Shown: positions 32,962-38,742 of the stretch, piece by piece
How the letters are laid out: every line of letters starts with the position of its first letter
How positions within the stretch are numbered: position 1 is the stretch's first letter
From: Pseudomonas sp. B21-040
GTDB taxonomy: Bacteria > Pseudomonadota > Gammaproteobacteria > Pseudomonadales > Pseudomonadaceae
Length of the DNA stretch: 64,000 nucleotides
NCBI RefSeq assembly: GCF_024748695.1
Contig: NZ_CP087176.1
Location: forward strand, 6,317,501-6,381,500
Reading direction: 5' to 3'
Made by a program: the position numbers and the translations under genes
The notes under the pieces: model-generated
What the model saw: only the letters and a program-made list of their open reading frames with translations
Databases searched by the model: none
Told to the model about the DNA's origin: nothing

Positions 32962-34326
32962 TTAGCCCTGCAACGCACTCAGGGTCAGGTCCAGACACTT
33001 GCGTGCCTTGGCCACCAACTCATCGATTTCAGCCGGTGTAATCACCAGTGGCGGAGCAATGATCATGGTGTCGCCCACGGCGCGCATGATCAGGCCGTTG
33101 TCGAAGCAGAACTGGCGGCAAATCATGCCGACGCCCTTGCCTTCGTAACGTTTGCGAGTGGCTTTGTCCTGAACCAGTTCAATGGCCCCCAACAGACCGA
33201 CACCACGCACTTCTCCCACCAACGGGTGATCGTTCAGTTCCCGCAGACGTTTCTGCAAATAGGGTGCCGTTTCTGCATGAACGCGCTCGATAATTTTTTC
33301 TTCGCGCAGGATGCGGATGTTTTCCAGCGCCACCGCAGCGGCCACCGGGTGACCGGAGTACGTGAAGCCGTGGTTGAAGTCGCCGCCTTCGTTCAGCACC
33401 TCGACCACTTCGTCACGCACGATCAGGCCACCCATGGGGATGTAGCCGGAGGTCAGGCCTTTGGCGATGGTCATCATGTCGGGCTTGAGGTCGTAGTAAT
33501 CGGTACCGAACCACTCACCGGTACGGCCAAAACCACAAATCACTTCGTCCGCCACGAACAGGATGTCGTACTTGGCGAGGATTTCCTTGATGCGCGGCCA
33601 GTAGGTGTCTGGCGGAATGATCACGCCACCGGCGCCCTGGATCGGCTCGGCAATAAAGGCACCGACGTTATCCACGCCGATTTCCAGAATTTTCTCTTCC
33701 AGCTGATTCGCCGCCCAGACGCCGAACTCTTCAGGCGTCATGTCGCCGCCTTCGGTGAACCAGTACGGCTGTGCGATGTGGACAATGCCCGGAATCGGCA
33801 AGTCGCCTTGTTCGTGCATGTACGTCATGCCACCCAGGCTCGCGCCGGCCACGGTAGAACCGTGATAGCCGTTCTTGCGGCTGATGATGACTTTCTTTTT
33901 CGGTTGGCCCTTGATCGCCCAGTAGTGACGAACCATACGCAGCATGGTGTCGTTGCCTTCGGAGCCGGAGCCGGTGAAGAACACGTGGTTCATGCCTTCT
34001 GGGGCGATGTCGGCGATGGCCTTGGCCAGCTCCAGAACCGGAGGGTGAGCGGTCTGGAAGAACAGGTTGTAGTAAGGCAGTTCGCGCATTTGCTTGCTAG
34101 CGGCATCGGCCAGTTCATCACGACCGTAACCGATCGCTACGCACCACAGGCCGGCCATGCCGTCGAGGATCTTGTTGCCTTCGCTGTCCCACAGGTAAAC
34201 GCCCTTGGCGTTGGTGATGATCCGCGGGCCTTTCTCTTTCAGCTGCTTGAAATCACTGAACGGAGCCAGGTGGTGATCGTTGCTCAGGGTTTGCCATTCA
34301 CGGGTTTGCGGATTGTTACTGGTCAT
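32962..34326 (-). CDS. spuC: Putrescine (polyamine):pyruvate aminotransferase
   Basis: A 454-residue class III PLP aminotransferase. The PLP region includes FTGSGSEGNDTMLRMVRHYW, FVADEVICGFGRTGEWFG and the Schiff-base Lys in MMTIAKGLTSGYIPMGG (about residue 285). Transfers the amino group of putrescine to pyruvate, giving 4-aminobutanal. Lies between spuB and spuD, 58 bp downstream of spuB, as in P. aeruginosa. Length and start (MTSNNPQTREW) are standard. Confidence 0.95.
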   Translation of the reverse strand: MTSNNPQTREWQTLSNDHHLAPFSDFKQLKEKGPRIITNAKGVYLWDSEGNKILDGMAGLWCVAIGYGRDELADAASKQMRELPYYNLFFQTAHPPVLELAKAIADIAPEGMNHVFFTGSGSEGNDTMLRMVRHYWAIKGQPKKKVIISRKNGYHGSTVAGASLGGMTYMHEQGDLPIPGIVHIAQPYWFTEGGDMTPEEFGVWAANQLEEKILEIGVDNVGAFIAEPIQGAGGVIIPPDTYWPRIKEILAKYDILFVADEVICGFGRTGEWFGTDYYDLKPDMMTIAKGLTSGYIPMGGLIVRDEVVEVLNEGGDFNHGFTYSGHPVAAAVALENIRILREEKIIERVHAETAPYLQKRLRELNDHPLVGEVRGVGLLGAIELVQDKATRKRYEGKGVGMICRQFCFDNGLIMRAVGDTMIIAPPLVITPAEIDELVAKARKCLDLTLSALQG

Positions 34327-34384: not shown

Positions 34385-35743
34385 TCAGACGGCAAAGAGC
34401 AGGAATTCCCGTTCCCACGAACTGATCACGCGCTTGAAGTTTTCATGCTCGGCCCGCTTGACCGCGACGTAGCCAGTAATGAAATTTTTGCCCAGGTACT
34501 TCTCGATGGTTGAGCTGTTTTCCATGCGATCCAGCGCATCTTCAATGGTCAGCGGCAGGCGCAGGTTGCGGCGTTCATAGCCACGGCCCACCACCGGGGC
34601 ACTCGGATTGAGGCCTTCGACCATGCCGACGTAACCGCAGAGCAGGCTCGCGGCAATCGCCAGGTACGGGTTGGCATCGGCGCCCGGCAGACGGTTTTCC
34701 ACCCGGCGGTTTTGCGGCCCGGCGTCCGGAACCCGCAGGCCCACGGTGCGGTTCTCTTCGCCCCACTCCACGTTCACCGGTGCCGAGGTGTCCGGCAGGA
34801 AGCGGCGGAACGAGTTGACGTTGGGCGCGAACAGCGGCAACAGCTCGGGAATGAGTTTCTGCAAGCCACCGATGTGGTGCAGGAACAACTGGCTCATGGT
34901 CCCGTCTTCATTGGAGAAGATGTTCTTGCCGGTCTCGATGTCGATGATGCTCTGGTGCAAGTGCATCGCACTGCCCGGTTCACCGGTCATGGGCTTGGCC
35001 ATGAAGGTCGCCGCCACGTCGTGCTTGAGCGCGGCTTCGCGCATGGTGCGCTTGAACACCAGGATCTGGTCGGCCAGGGACAGGGCATCGCCGTGACGGA
35101 AGTTGATTTCCATCTGCGCCGTGCCGTCCTCATGGATCAACGTATCGAGGTCCAGCTCCTGCAGTTCGCACCAGTCGTAGACGTCTTCGAACAGCGGATC
35201 GAATTCGTTCGCCGCTTCAATCGAGAACGACTGGCGACCGATTTCCGGGCGCCCGGAGCGACCGATCGGCGGCTGCAGCGGATAGTCGGGGTCGTCGCTG
35301 CGCTTGGTCAGGTAGAACTCCATTTCCGGCGCCACGATCGGCTGCCAGCCCTTGTCGGTATAGAGTTTCAGGACCTTCTTGAGCACGTTGCGCGGCGACA
35401 GCTCGATCGGGTTGCCTTGCTTGTCGTAGGTGTCGTGGATCACCTGGGCAGTCGGCTCGATGGCCCACGGCACCAGAAACACAGCGTTCTGGTCGGGGCG
35501 GCAGATCATGTCGATGTCGGCCGGGTCGAGCAGCTCGTAATAGATGTCGTCTTCGACATAGTCGCCGGTCACGGTCTGCAACAAAACGCTTTCAGGCAGG
35601 CGCATGCCTTTTTCGGCAATGAACTTGTTGGTCGGCGAAATCTTGCCCCGGGTAATCCCGGTCAAGTCGGCGATCATGCATTCGACTTCTGTGATCTTGT
35701 GGTCTTTCAACCAATCGGTGAGCTGGTCGAGGTTGTTACTCAT
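34385..35743 (-). CDS. spuB: Gamma-glutamylpolyamine synthetase
   Basis: A 452-residue glutamine-synthetase-fold ligase that attaches glutamate to polyamines. GS motifs are present: EDGTAQMEINFRHGDALSLADQ, KPMTGEPGSAMHLHQSI and a metal/Arg region NRRVENRLPGADANPYLAIAAS. N-terminal DLTGITRGKISP is typical of the PuuA group rather than GlnA, and the adenylylation Tyr region of GlnA is not evident. An AGAGG site precedes the ATG at 35743. Gene immediately upstream should be spuA, but only a remnant is present. Confidence 0.93.
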   Translation of the reverse strand: MSNNLDQLTDWLKDHKITEVECMIADLTGITRGKISPTNKFIAEKGMRLPESVLLQTVTGDYVEDDIYYELLDPADIDMICRPDQNAVFLVPWAIEPTAQVIHDTYDKQGNPIELSPRNVLKKVLKLYTDKGWQPIVAPEMEFYLTKRSDDPDYPLQPPIGRSGRPEIGRQSFSIEAANEFDPLFEDVYDWCELQELDLDTLIHEDGTAQMEINFRHGDALSLADQILVFKRTMREAALKHDVAATFMAKPMTGEPGSAMHLHQSIIDIETGKNIFSNEDGTMSQLFLHHIGGLQKLIPELLPLFAPNVNSFRRFLPDTSAPVNVEWGEENRTVGLRVPDAGPQNRRVENRLPGADANPYLAIAASLLCGYVGMVEGLNPSAPVVGRGYERRNLRLPLTIEDALDRMENSSTIEKYLGKNFITGYVAVKRAEHENFKRVISSWEREFLLFAV

Positions 35744-35781
35744 AAATGCCTCTAGGCTTTGAGTTTCCTGACTCTTGCAAG

Positions 35782-36144
35782 TCAGGCGATGTTTGACGCA
35801 TCGGCGTCGCGTTGAAACGGGTGTCTGCGACAGGCTATCGTGTTTCTTGCGGACTGCGCGCCAACGGCCGGGCGTGCAGAATCACGAGCGGAGTCCTGTG
35901 CGATAGCCAGGCCGCTATTGTGAATCGGTTCTATATTGAATGGAGTAACCGTAATGGGGGTGCCATCAGGACCGTCCAGAATATCGGACGCAGACCGATG
36001 AGCCGCCAGCGACCGCAGAGTTTTGAGCGGGCCCGAAGCCGATGAGGCTACGGCGCGGACGCAAGTGTCGCCACTGATGTGGTAAGCATGCAGACCAATC
36101 TGCCTAGAGCAGTTGGTGATGCCGATTATCGGCAGGCGAGACAT
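35782..36144 (-). pseudogene. spuA: Decayed remnant of spuA (gamma-glutamyl-polyamine hydrolase, class I GATase)
   Basis: A 120-codon open frame on the minus strand, 38 bp upstream of spuB. Its start, MSRLPIIGITNCSRQIGLHA followed by YHISGDTCVRAVASSA, is clearly the N-terminus of SpuA/PuuD-type peptidase C26 proteins; next come SDILDGPDG and FNIEPIHNSG, which match the family's SDILDxxDG and SNIEPxHY blocks. Between them, the hydrophobic core has been replaced by non-conservative residues, and the GICRG nucleophile elbow survives only as a poor IACRRHPFQ. Full-length SpuA is about 250 residues; the second half, with the catalytic His/Glu, is absent. No function expected. Confidence 0.8.
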
Positions 36145-36422
36145 GAAGCACCCCGGTATTATTGGTGTTATGGGTTTGAATCGAGCTTAGCCTTGTTCAT
36201 TTTTTTACACAACACCCCCGTAAAAAATACAACACGCCCCGCTCAACCCTGCGTCGGCTAAAGCGTTCAAAGGCATAAAAACGCCCCAAACTGCCTCAAA
36301 AAAGCCTTACGAGCGCTTTTTTAGGGCAAAAAAGGCCTCGCTTGACTTCGGCATGCCGTTCGGGTTGACTGGAATCCGAAGAGATCAATGATTGATATTT
36401 TTAACAACAAAGGTGTTGCATC
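36145..36422. promoter_or_regulatory. Divergent promoter region for spuI and the (spuA)-spuBCDEFGH operon
   Basis: A 278 bp non-coding stretch between the spuA remnant and spuI, with AT-rich patches near 36190-36230 and 36300-36330. It should hold the promoters for both directions: in P. aeruginosa the operon promoter lies upstream of spuA, so the remnant here would be an untranslated leader of spuB. A TTGACT box occurs at about 36364 before spuI, but no convincing -10 partner was found. Specific operators not identified. Confidence 0.5.
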
Positions 36423-37799
36423 ATGTCGGTACCCCCGCGTGCCGTTCAGCTTAACGAAGCGAACGCGTTCCTTAAGGAACATCCTGAGGTTCTGTACGTT
36501 GACCTTCTGATTGCGGATATGAATGGTGTGGTGCGCGGCAAGCGCATTGAACGCACCAGCCTCCACAAGGTTTACGAGAAAGGCATCAACCTGCCGGCCT
36601 CTCTATTTGCTCTGGATATCAATGGCTCGACGGTGGAAAGCACCGGCCTGGGCCTGGACATCGGTGATGCTGACCGAATCTGCTATCCAATCCCCGACAC
36701 CCTGTGCAATGAGCCTTGGCAGAAACGCCCTACCGCGCAGCTGTTGATGACCATGCACGAACTCGAAGGTGACCCTTTCTTCGCGGATCCCCGTGAAGTG
36801 CTGCGTCAAGTCGTGACCAAGTTCGACGAGATGGGCCTGACCATCTGCGCCGCGTTCGAACTGGAGTTCTACCTGATCGACCAGGAAAACGTGAACGGCC
36901 GTCCACAGCCGCCACGCTCGCCGATCTCTGGCAAACGCCCGCATTCGACTCAGGTCTACCTGATCGACGACCTCGACGAATACGTCGATTGCCTCCAGGA
37001 CATTCTGGAAGGTGCGAAAGAGCAAGGCATCCCTGCCGACGCGATCGTCAAGGAAAGTGCCCCGGCGCAATTCGAAGTGAACCTGCACCACGTGGCCGAC
37101 CCGATCAAGGCCTGCGACTACGCGGTTCTGCTCAAGCGCCTGATCAAAAACATCGCCTACGACCATGAAATGGACACCACCTTCATGGCCAAGCCTTACC
37201 CGGGCCAGGCGGGCAACGGTCTGCACGTCCATATCTCGATTCTTGATAAAGACGGCAAAAACATTTTTGCCAGCGAGGATCCCGAGCAGAACGCCGCACT
37301 GCGTCACGCGATCGGCGGTGTGCTCGAGACCCTGCCCGCGCAGATGGCTTTCCTCTGCCCGAACGTCAACTCCTACCGTCGTTTCGGCGCACAGTTCTAC
37401 GTGCCGAACTCGCCGTGCTGGGGCCTGGACAACCGTACCGTGGCGATTCGCGTACCGACCGGCTCTTCCGATGCCGTACGTATCGAACACCGTGTTGCCG
37501 GCGCCGATGCCAACCCGTACCTGTTGATGGCTTCGGTCCTGGCAGGCGTGCACCACGGCCTGACCAACAAGATCGAGCCAGGCGCACCCGTAGAAGGCAA
37601 CTCCTACGAGCAGAACGAGCAAAGCCTGCCGAACAACCTGCGCGATGCATTGCGCGAGCTGGACGACAGCGAAGTCATGGCCAAGTACATCGATCCGAAG
37701 TACATCGATATCTTCGTCGCGTGCAAAGAGAGCGAGCTGGAGGAGTTCGAACACTCCATCTCCGACCTTGAGTACAACTGGTACCTGCATACCGTGTAA
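36423..37799 (+). CDS. spuI: Gamma-glutamylpolyamine synthetase, second copy
   Basis: A 458-residue glutamine-synthetase-fold ligase, paralogous to SpuB. Blocks: DMNGVVRGKRIE, FELEFYLIDQENVNGRP, KESAPAQFEVNLHH, KPYPGQAGNGLHVHISILD, NSYRRFGAQFYVPNSPCWGLDNRT and RIEHRVAGADANPYLLMASVL. These are the catalytic glutamates, His and Arg of GS-type ligases. It starts at an ATG with AAAGGTG upstream. Divergent from spuB, as one of two such synthetases at this locus; together they activate putrescine and other polyamines by glutamylation before oxidation. Confidence 0.93.
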   Translation: MSVPPRAVQLNEANAFLKEHPEVLYVDLLIADMNGVVRGKRIERTSLHKVYEKGINLPASLFALDINGSTVESTGLGLDIGDADRICYPIPDTLCNEPWQKRPTAQLLMTMHELEGDPFFADPREVLRQVVTKFDEMGLTICAAFELEFYLIDQENVNGRPQPPRSPISGKRPHSTQVYLIDDLDEYVDCLQDILEGAKEQGIPADAIVKESAPAQFEVNLHHVADPIKACDYAVLLKRLIKNIAYDHEMDTTFMAKPYPGQAGNGLHVHISILDKDGKNIFASEDPEQNAALRHAIGGVLETLPAQMAFLCPNVNSYRRFGAQFYVPNSPCWGLDNRTVAIRVPTGSSDAVRIEHRVAGADANPYLLMASVLAGVHHGLTNKIEPGAPVEGNSYEQNEQSLPNNLRDALRELDDSEVMAKYIDPKYIDIFVACKESELEEFEHSISDLEYNWYLHTV

Positions 37800-37982: not shown

Positions 37983-38742
37983 TTGAAATTGAAAAAACAC
38001 CTTCTGGGCGTAGCCCTTTCACTGATCGGTGCCGGCTTGTGCACTTCTGCCCTGGCCCGTAACGATCACACTTCCACCTGGTCTTACAGCGATCACTCCG
38101 GCCCGGAACACTGGAGCGACCTCAACAGCGACTACAAACTCTGCTCAACCGGCAAGGCGCAGTCACCTATCGACATCAGCAATGCGGTCAAGGCCAGCCT
38201 GGCGCCCCTGACATTCACCTATCGAGCAAGCCCGGTAACGGTCCTGAACAACGGCCATACCATTCAAGTGTCGCCAACGGACGCCGGCGGGATCACCTTG
38301 CCTTCCGGCGACTTCTCACTGGTGCAGTTGCACTTTCATACGCCCAGCGAGGAAAGAATCCAGGGCCGCGCCTACCCGCTCGATGCGCATTTCGTACATC
38401 GCAATGCGGCCGGCGAGTTAGCGGTAGTCGCCCTGTTGTTTGAAGAAGGTGCCTACAACCCTGCACTGGAAACCCATTCTCGCGGCAATGCCCAAGGAAG
38501 CAGGCGGCATGACGAAGCTGGAGATGCAAAATATCGCCGATCTGCTGCCGACCACCCGCCATTACTATTCCTACATGGGTTCTCTGACCACACCGCCGTG
38601 CAGCGAAGGGGTGCGCTGGCATGTCCTGACCCAACCGGTGCAATTGTCCCACGCCCAGTTGCAGGCTTTTCAGGCCTTGTACCCGATGAACGCACGCCCT
38701 GTTCAGCCCCTGAATGACCGAACCGTGAACGTCGGCGGCTGA
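37983..38742 (+). pseudogene. Alpha-carbonic anhydrase, broken by a 1-base insertion
   Basis: Reads as a periplasmic alpha-type carbonic anhydrase (CO2 hydration). Signal peptide ends near TSALA/RND; the zinc ligands are HFH in LVQLHFHTPSE and the His in LDAHFVHRN; the gate is in [14 protein letters not shown]. The frame from 37983 (TTG start) is correct through YNPALET, but the rest of the domain (AAMPKEAGG...[10 protein letters not shown]...) continues in the next frame. GAAACC-C-ATTCTC shows one extra C in the run 38473-38475; removing it restores a 252-residue enzyme ending at 38742. As written, the protein ends out of frame at 38717. Either inactivation or a sequencing error. Confidence 0.85.

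Follow-up and report, generated by a model that had tools for sequence, protein, structure and literature searches.

Our analyses of the window (viz. the whole 64,000-nucleotide stretch of Pseudomonas sp. B21-040 DNA examined here) indicate that the spuA remnant lying between spuB and spuI has lost the catalytic segments of the enzyme, and that its start codon and open frame have been retained across relatives while the encoded peptide has evolved almost neutrally. The original prediction had regarded this frame as a mere decayed leftover of the polyamine operon. That view does not hold, as both the start codon and the open frame are kept far above the level of neutral decay and patches of nucleotide sequence are kept along with them. 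We consider it probable that the remnant controls spuBC and the transporter genes from the 5' end of their operon, viz. as a translated leader inherited from spuA. Based upon the sequence comparisons presented below, the retention of leader translation appears well supported and control of spuB by the leader is likely, while Rho together with Crc/Hfq is our best guess as to the mode of action. The features on which this proposal is based are listed in Table 1.

Table 1. Location and characteristics of the spuA remnant, its neighbouring genes and the sequence elements in and around it (window coordinates).
Feature	Position	Strand	Characteristics
spuA remnant / putative translated leader ORF	35782..36144	-	120 codons, ATG to TGA, native start and native stop
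spuB, glutamine-synthetase-like, intact	34385..35743	-	Gln-synt_C, 368 bits
spuC, aminotransferase class III, intact	32962..34326	-	domain matches
spuI, glutamine-synthetase-like, divergent from the remnant	36423..37799	+	domain matches
Promoter-like TTGTGT-17-TAAGCT in conserved box	36184..36212	-	read by eye
A-R-N-type (Hfq distal-face / Crc-like) stretch before leader ATG	36158..36169	-	
Ancestral spuA start codon	36142..36144	-	homologous ATG in 114/114 short intervals with upstream anchor
HP1, dyad GCCG-N5-CGGC, codons 4-8	36121..36133	-	paired in all group-A relics
HP2, dyad CTGC-N5-GCAG	36100..36112	-	group A paired 0.81 vs 0.75 shuffled
E3 element CCGATATTCTGGACG, encodes DILDG	35973..35987	-	96/114 relics; shuffled rate 0.6%
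C-rich, G-poor stretch right after E3, rut-like composition	35893..35972	-	25 C, 16 G in 80 nt
H1 hairpin GACGC-CGAT-GCGTC	35795..35808	-	87/114 relics vs 0.6% in shuffles
H2 hairpin CCTGACT-TGCAAG-AGTCAGG, spans leader stop codon	35767..35786	-	
H3 small hairpin GCC-TAGA-GGC over spuB ribosome site	35748..35757	-	sequence

A spuA remnant without the catalytic segments

The 120-codon frame on the minus strand was found exactly where it had been predicted, and its derivation from SpuA is confirmed by a phmmer search in which residues 1-97 match the P. aeruginosa SpuA chains 7d4r, 7d53 and 7d50 (E 2.7e-18). In a profile search against peptidase C26, by which the assignment was to be judged, the Pfam Peptidase_C26 model scores 18.1 bits on the remnant, below its curated cut-off of 20.5, and the homology is stated here from the pairwise match. 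Matches of the remnant to TolC in the phmmer search (E 0.04 and worse) look like chance. The genes spuB, spuC and spuI are intact, as had been stated, all three being of full length with the expected domains in a profile search.

At the DNA level, codons 1-91 of the remnant are 72-78% identical to the intact genes of two relatives, with one 8-nt block at 62%, and pairwise alignments with loci L045 and L053 indicate that its 3' end still comprises the final 11-18 codons of the gene, the native stop among them. In the intact gene of L045, the landmarks GICRG, HPEW, DACRKR and RDADAS are located at codons 111, 221, 241 and 250, respectively, and the remnant contains neither the nucleophile elbow GICRG nor the catalytic His/Glu motif HPEW. 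These alignments place the lesion inside the gene, where very roughly codons 92-240 have been lost and the sequence joining the two retained ends aligns poorly. The earlier statement that the second half is absent is hence not wholly correct, the end of the gene having survived. The sequence IACRR, which had been taken for a surviving GICRG elbow, is better read as a piece of the C-terminus, the elbow having been lost entirely, because the ACR of the remnant sits 8 residues before RDADAS, the same spacing as in the DACRKR tail of the intact L045 gene. In comparison with L053, this region aligns to the end of the gene from codon 247 on; with L045 it yields scattered short blocks and a clean alignment for the last 11 codons only.

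Short relatives of the remnant, 81-162 aa in length (among the best 120 of 152 matches), are present in public protein databases, and several of them are named as gamma-glutamyl-GABA hydrolase family proteins or glutamine amidotransferases; these names are probably misleading. Elsewhere in the window, a carbonic anhydrase gene (37983-38742, plus strand) is split by a frameshift, positions 2-151 of Pfam PF00194 being found in 37983-38717 and positions 160-251 in another frame at 38440-38742.

Probable redundancy and possible repeated loss of spuA

According to the original prediction, the hydrolase step would have to be supplied from elsewhere in the genome, or else the gamma-glutamyl route would stall. 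A search of the genome (6.75 Mb, one contig) for other C26 peptidases identified an intact SpuA-like protein of 256 aa (spuA2) at 2.736 Mb, which scores 249.8 bits and contains both GICRG and HPEW. Another C26 protein, at 4.265 Mb, is more distantly related. Hence, the hydrolase would come from elsewhere, as had been stated, and with an intact SpuA-like protein at a second locus the route need not stall. Since the NCBIfam PuuD equivalog model scores 210 bits on the spuA2 product, below its cut-off of 266, the substrate of this protein is a putative one. The spuA2 gene is divergent from a second SpuI gene (spuI2), 92.8% identical to the SpuI of the window. Within its locus (L237, 2730500-2742500), one flank is occupied by genes for an aldehyde dehydrogenase and an FAD-dependent oxidoreductase, and the other by ABC transporter genes with a binding protein. 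Going by the families to which they belong, these neighbours at 2.73-2.74 Mb would make up a gamma-glutamyl route.

The spuI-spuB interval was surveyed in loci that had been selected for resembling the window in their spuB or leader sequence. The leader search gave a match in 195 of 199 genomes (own included), of which 149 were used as 30 loci and 119 stretches, and the best 80 of 567 were kept from a second similarity search of loci. After 16 of the 231 loci examined had been dropped because they lack a spuI-spuB pair, 215 remained, of which 10 are duplicates. An intact spuA is present in 89 of the 205 distinct loci and none intact in 116, a proportion which, the loci being similarity-drawn, is not a frequency for the genus. 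A gene was scored as intact when it had an open frame of at least 225 codons with CRG and HPEW (L111, which this rule missed, was set to intact by hand). Relic groups A-D are our own sorting of 76 relics, the other 40 belonging to none. The motif counts given below refer to the 114 relics and 75 intact loci with an upstream anchor; 2 of the 116 relics, which are therefore outside the start-codon count, and 14 intact loci have no such anchor. The surveyed sequences are related, and their kinship is addressed by the sister-pair test and the tree alone.

On a tree of flanking genes from 66 named loci and the window, the state of spuA requires at least 9 changes, 7 of which are forced by well supported branches, and a single deletion in one clade is thereby ruled out. 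The intact spuA of L045 (Pseudomonas sp. UYIF39) is nested among relic-bearing relatives on this tree, so that several losses, or re-acquisition by recombination, must be allowed. Two records with Pseudomonas-type spu genes (L071 and L107) are named Pantoea sp.; for L071 this name looks wrong, as the locus groups with the P. putida types on the tree.

The distribution of the second copy was determined with the spuA2 protein as query (E up to 1e-40) in 68 relic genomes besides the window's own and in 26 genomes with intact spuA. It is present in all 12 sampled genomes of relic group C, to which the window belongs (87-97%), and in all 17 of group B (88-91%). Within group A (P. fluorescens type), 1 of 17 sampled genomes has a spuA2-like match (43%) and the other 16 have none at this threshold; spuI, spuB and the leader have nevertheless been kept in this group (e.g. 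L172, L174-L193). The P. putida-type relic genomes (n=5) have a match of 58-61%, and the remaining 17 relic genomes one of 81-95% in 4 cases, 42-44% in 6 and none in 7. For the 26 intact-spuA genomes, a second copy was found at 81-92% in 7 and at 57% in 1, while 18 have the spu-locus gene alone; when the intact genomes are ranked by leader match to the window, five of the top six are within those 7. Redundancy before loss would thus fit the window's lineage.

The P. aeruginosa spuABCDEFGH-spuI cluster, reportedly described by Lu et al. in 2002, has the same gene order and divergent operons. In P. aeruginosa PA7 (L083), unlike in the window, spuA is intact. One PauR site has been reported to act on pauA1 and spuABCDEFGH in P. 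aeruginosa (PMC7901475). In P. putida G7/U, as in the window's genome, spuA is absent from the first cluster (spuBCDEFGH) and present in a second one (PMC10606097). The available part of that account treats this as a rearrangement of spuA and mentions no retained start, frame or elements (PMC10606097).

Retained start codon, open frame and nucleotide patches

The conservation of the ancestral start codon (Table 1) is accompanied in 114/114 relics by a G-rich purine run, a broad pattern, 4-15 nt upstream of the leader ATG, and the conserved GGGG at 36151-36154 may be the Shine-Dalgarno sequence of this ATG. From the ATG to E3, the 96 relics with this element contain no stop among 4632 codons in frame 0, compared with 140 of 4632 and 100 of 4536 in the other frames; in the first half of 112 leaders (up to 600 nt), there are 3 stops in 7154 codons of frame 0 vs 203 in 7103 and 153 in 7076. 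E3 is in phase with the leader ATG in all 96 relics, at 12 different distances ranging between 64 and 181 nt. When the substitutions observed in 38 disjoint sister pairs were placed at random (1000 runs), 13.1 +/- 3.5 new stops resulted, with a minimum of 4, whereas no net new stop is observed, the 76 sequences containing 2 stops altogether. A neutral accumulation of stops and frameshifts is thus contradicted for the first ~60-100 codons; after about codon 95, frameshifts do occur.

The encoded peptide is hardly constrained. The dN/dS of the relics is 0.77 (CI 0.64-0.97), compared with 0.99 and 1.04 for sham frames, and with an uncorrected method the relics give 0.68-0.79 where intact spuA gives 0.15. 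The leaders vary in length from 44 to 150 codons (n=112), and across groups the relic peptides have little in common beyond their start and an xI[ILV]D motif, to which a shared end is added in some. As the frame is open while the peptide is hardly constrained, translation appears to have been kept more than a protein; a weak role of the peptide may exist, the frame-0 dN/dS being somewhat below 1. The outcome that had been named as contrary to decay, a frame conserved by purifying selection across strains, is accordingly found in part, the frame being kept and the peptide hardly. The relics show what is expected of a leader or attenuator ORF, in that both the ATG and an open frame have been kept ahead of the putatively controlled gene.

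The patches conserved among relics comprise codons 1-12 and 15-26, E3, NIEP, HDSAR and RDADASNNA. The synonymous identity of these patches in 21 intact P. fluorescens-type genes is 0.851 vs 0.556 elsewhere, a value reached in 1 of 271 circular shifts; for the NIEP patch by itself there is no synonymous suppression (0.62 in codons 73-78, equal to the gene-wide mean). These patterns were defined on the same data as were used for testing them, and the shuffles quoted for motif, ARN, hairpin and composition counts preserve base make-up only. A recognisable E3 is missing from 18/114 relics and 22/75 intact loci. The phase of the late patches E5-E8 is not kept, as expected if these patches act as RNA or DNA. 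The possibility that E3-E8 are sigma-70 promoters was rejected, as a consensus scan gave two hits on the plus strand, neither at a used patch. The same scan missed the promoter-like box at 36184..36212, in which the 15-nt blocks of 36182-36211 have a conservation of 0.95-1.00 in three classes; the box before spuA is 79% identical over 56 bp to the sequence upstream of spuA2. The Pseudomonas sRNA P1 family (Rfam RF00623) matches 36150-36329 on the plus strand with 165.5 bits (gathering threshold 100, E 1.7e-34). This match adjoins the relic without being part of it, lying upstream over the divergent spuI/spuA promoter region, and the conservation of the P1 family may partly reflect promoters and operator sites.

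Runs of A-R-N triplets are the kind of site that Hfq and Crc use. At least 4 consecutive ARN triplets precede the ATG in 91/114 relics and 59/75 intact loci (about 1% in shuffles), while a score of 2 or less is seen in 21/114 and 15/75, respectively; the stretch in the window (AAC ACC AAT AAT) is one triplet off and scores 2. Within 40 nt ahead of spuB, at least three consecutive ARN triplets occur in 2/114 relic and 5/75 intact loci. Three ARN triplets near the ribosome site are also present before the spuI start (36403-36422, plus strand, AACAACAAAGG), in 114/114 relic and 72/75 intact loci compared with 16-19% in shuffles, and on its sequence this stretch is a candidate Crc/Hfq site. A C-rich, G-poor segment in or after the leader, as in Rho attenuators, is present in terms of composition: in the 80 nt after E3, C exceeds G in 95/96 relics, and as it does so in 53/53 intact genes the stretch is not relic-specific. 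A difference of C minus G of at least 0.15 is found in 47% of the 96 relics, 17% of the 53 intact genes and 3.9% of windows taken from the 64-kb region. Such a composition would suit Rho wherever ribosomes are missing.

Several hairpins were identified in the relics (Table 1). For HP1, 17 distinct 26-nt starts in group A comprise 15 with GCCG/CGGC and 2 with GCCG/TGGC arms around 9 different loops, and since the arms are nearly invariant this constitutes weak evidence of covariation. HP2 covaries in group A (7 double-change cells vs 2.0 in shuffles, 0/1000 as high) and in the pooled relics, with no covariation in groups B and C, and little weight is given here to HP1 and HP2. RNAalifold on whole leaders gave weak covariation except in the terminal hairpins. 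Within the last 75 nt before spuB, 64/100 distinct relic ends and 48/67 intact ones contain a perfect stem of 6 or more pairs, compared with 10% of mononucleotide shuffles. These stems are mostly the H2 hairpin with exchanged arms (e.g. CCTGAC/GTCAGG, CCTGGC/GCCAGG, CCTGATC/GATCAGG and CCGGTT/AACCGG), and P. putida-type loci have a TACCT/AGGTA pairing as an alternative to H3. Several P. putida-type leaders (L070-L081) end in ACC TCC TGA within the spuB ribosome site; UCC-UGA is the antizyme frameshift site, and the resemblance is most likely a coincidence.

Proposed leader control of the operon and its alternatives

Under the proposed leader model, the front of the ancestral spuA would have had two jobs, coding for the hydrolase and serving as a control segment read by ribosomes. 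With a second gamma-glutamyl locus present, the enzyme job would have become dispensable and the catalytic part could be deleted, while selection would have continued to act on the start codon, on the frame kept open as far as E3 and on the hairpins between the cistrons. Ribosomes reading the leader would cover the C-rich segment after E3 and thereby prevent Rho-dependent termination; in leaders that end close to spuB, these ribosomes would also open the hairpins over the spuB start. Crc/Hfq bound at the A-rich site of the leader would block this one initiation and so turn off the whole operon. Rho protection, coupling and Crc/Hfq action through the leader are what we infer from the elements described above. 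The distance from the leader stop to spuB (n=112) is 10 nt or less in 21 cases, 28-42 nt in 24, 66-97 nt in 46 and more than 97 nt in 21; as it is so variable, direct coupling cannot be the rule. The leaders of L172 and L058, which end 291 nt and 226 nt before spuB, respectively, fit poorly with Rho protection.

Loss of crc in P. aeruginosa leads to a joint post-transcriptional rise of spuA, spuB, spuC and spuD (PTV 2.11, 2.01, 1.46 and 1.40; PMC6235884, Table 1). A further resemblance to Crc/Hfq translational repression in Pseudomonas (PMC6235884) is the ARN-type stretch before the first ORF, the putative site in the window being imperfect. These four genes rise together, and spuB itself is nearly devoid of ARN runs. 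Taken with the composition after E3, this would be explained most simply by an operon that is gated through translation of its first ORF. Translation of orf34 in the leader of Salmonella speF prevents Rho termination and opens the structure over the next ribosome site (PMC6386406), and by analogy orf34-speF is a published precedent for both Rho gating and start opening. The two systems share a short ORF near the transcript start of a polyamine-pathway operon (PMC6386406), the role of translation being a proposal in the present case. However, orf34 differs in its small size, its conserved core and its arginine codons, through which supply is sensed (PMC6386406). The spuA leader is a former enzyme gene; most of its peptide is unconstrained, and codons for sensing are not evident in it.

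The simplest alternative, that a redundant spuA has lost its middle and is drifting as a plain pseudogene, with an open frame left over from recent coding ancestry, would account for the missing catalytic segments, the redundancy with spuA2 in the window's lineage, the near-neutral dN/dS of 0.77 and the frameshifts after about codon 95 in several relatives. However, there are too few stops for the divergence in the sister-pair test, the ATG is kept in 114/114 anchored relics, E3 is always in phase, and nucleotide patches are conserved against a scrambled background; retention also extends to lineages in which little of the flanking peptide can be recognised (P. putida type and P. fluorescens subgroup). 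Neutral decay is rejected for the first ~60-100 codons by the frame-retention and sister-pair tests, and we consider this explanation very unlikely for the relic overall.

It may also be asked whether the relic encodes a functional small protein, e.g. a shortened C26 fragment that acts in regulation, given that the frame is kept open, dN/dS lies slightly below 1, and short forms are predicted in public databases (152 matches with E up to 1e-3 among 168 candidates). Such a protein is highly improbable in view of peptides that have little in common between groups, a dN/dS of about 0.7-0.8 vs 0.15 for intact spuA, lengths ranging from 44 to 150 codons in the 112 leaders, and the loss of the frame after about codon 95 in many relatives. 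Selection on DNA or RNA elements only, such as operators or an antisense transcript like P1, with the frame being incidental, would agree with the conservation of short patches including their synonymous sites, the lack of phase in E5-E8 and the P1 match next door. We hold it to be unlikely, as it leaves unexplained the scarcity of stops between patches and the fixed phase of E3, and as the P1 match covers the divergent promoter region, upstream of the relic.

Our preferred reading remains that of a translated leader which stems from spuA. A retained spuA leader was not found reported in the open-licence literature searched, and what would be new here is a leader ORF that derives from the first part of an enzyme gene and has been kept repeatedly after loss of the enzyme. 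We suggest more tentatively, as a possibility slightly short of evenly balanced, that spuA is a two-in-one gene in Pseudomonas, in which the 5' part is a cis-acting switch for the entire polyamine operon, read by ribosomes and with nucleotide elements lying within the codons of the enzyme, the enzyme having been repeatedly discarded and the switch kept each time. This suggestion is to be read together with the possibility that some of the seven forced changes are regains, and with the P. fluorescens subgroup having no detected replacement. If it is true, many genomes carry "ghost leaders" that are listed in databases as truncated hydrolases.

Rho-gating leader ORFs are commonly regarded as short elements made for the purpose. 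The spuA relics suggest a natural route by which they may arise, in which the first gene of an operon carries the gate and, once its product has become redundant, the gate alone is kept; the relics would represent repeated evolutionary replicates of this one kind of event. The leader model predicts catabolite repression of the entire operon through a single leader initiation site. More generally, annotations of "truncated enzymes" and pseudogene calls at the heads of operons may hide regulatory parts.
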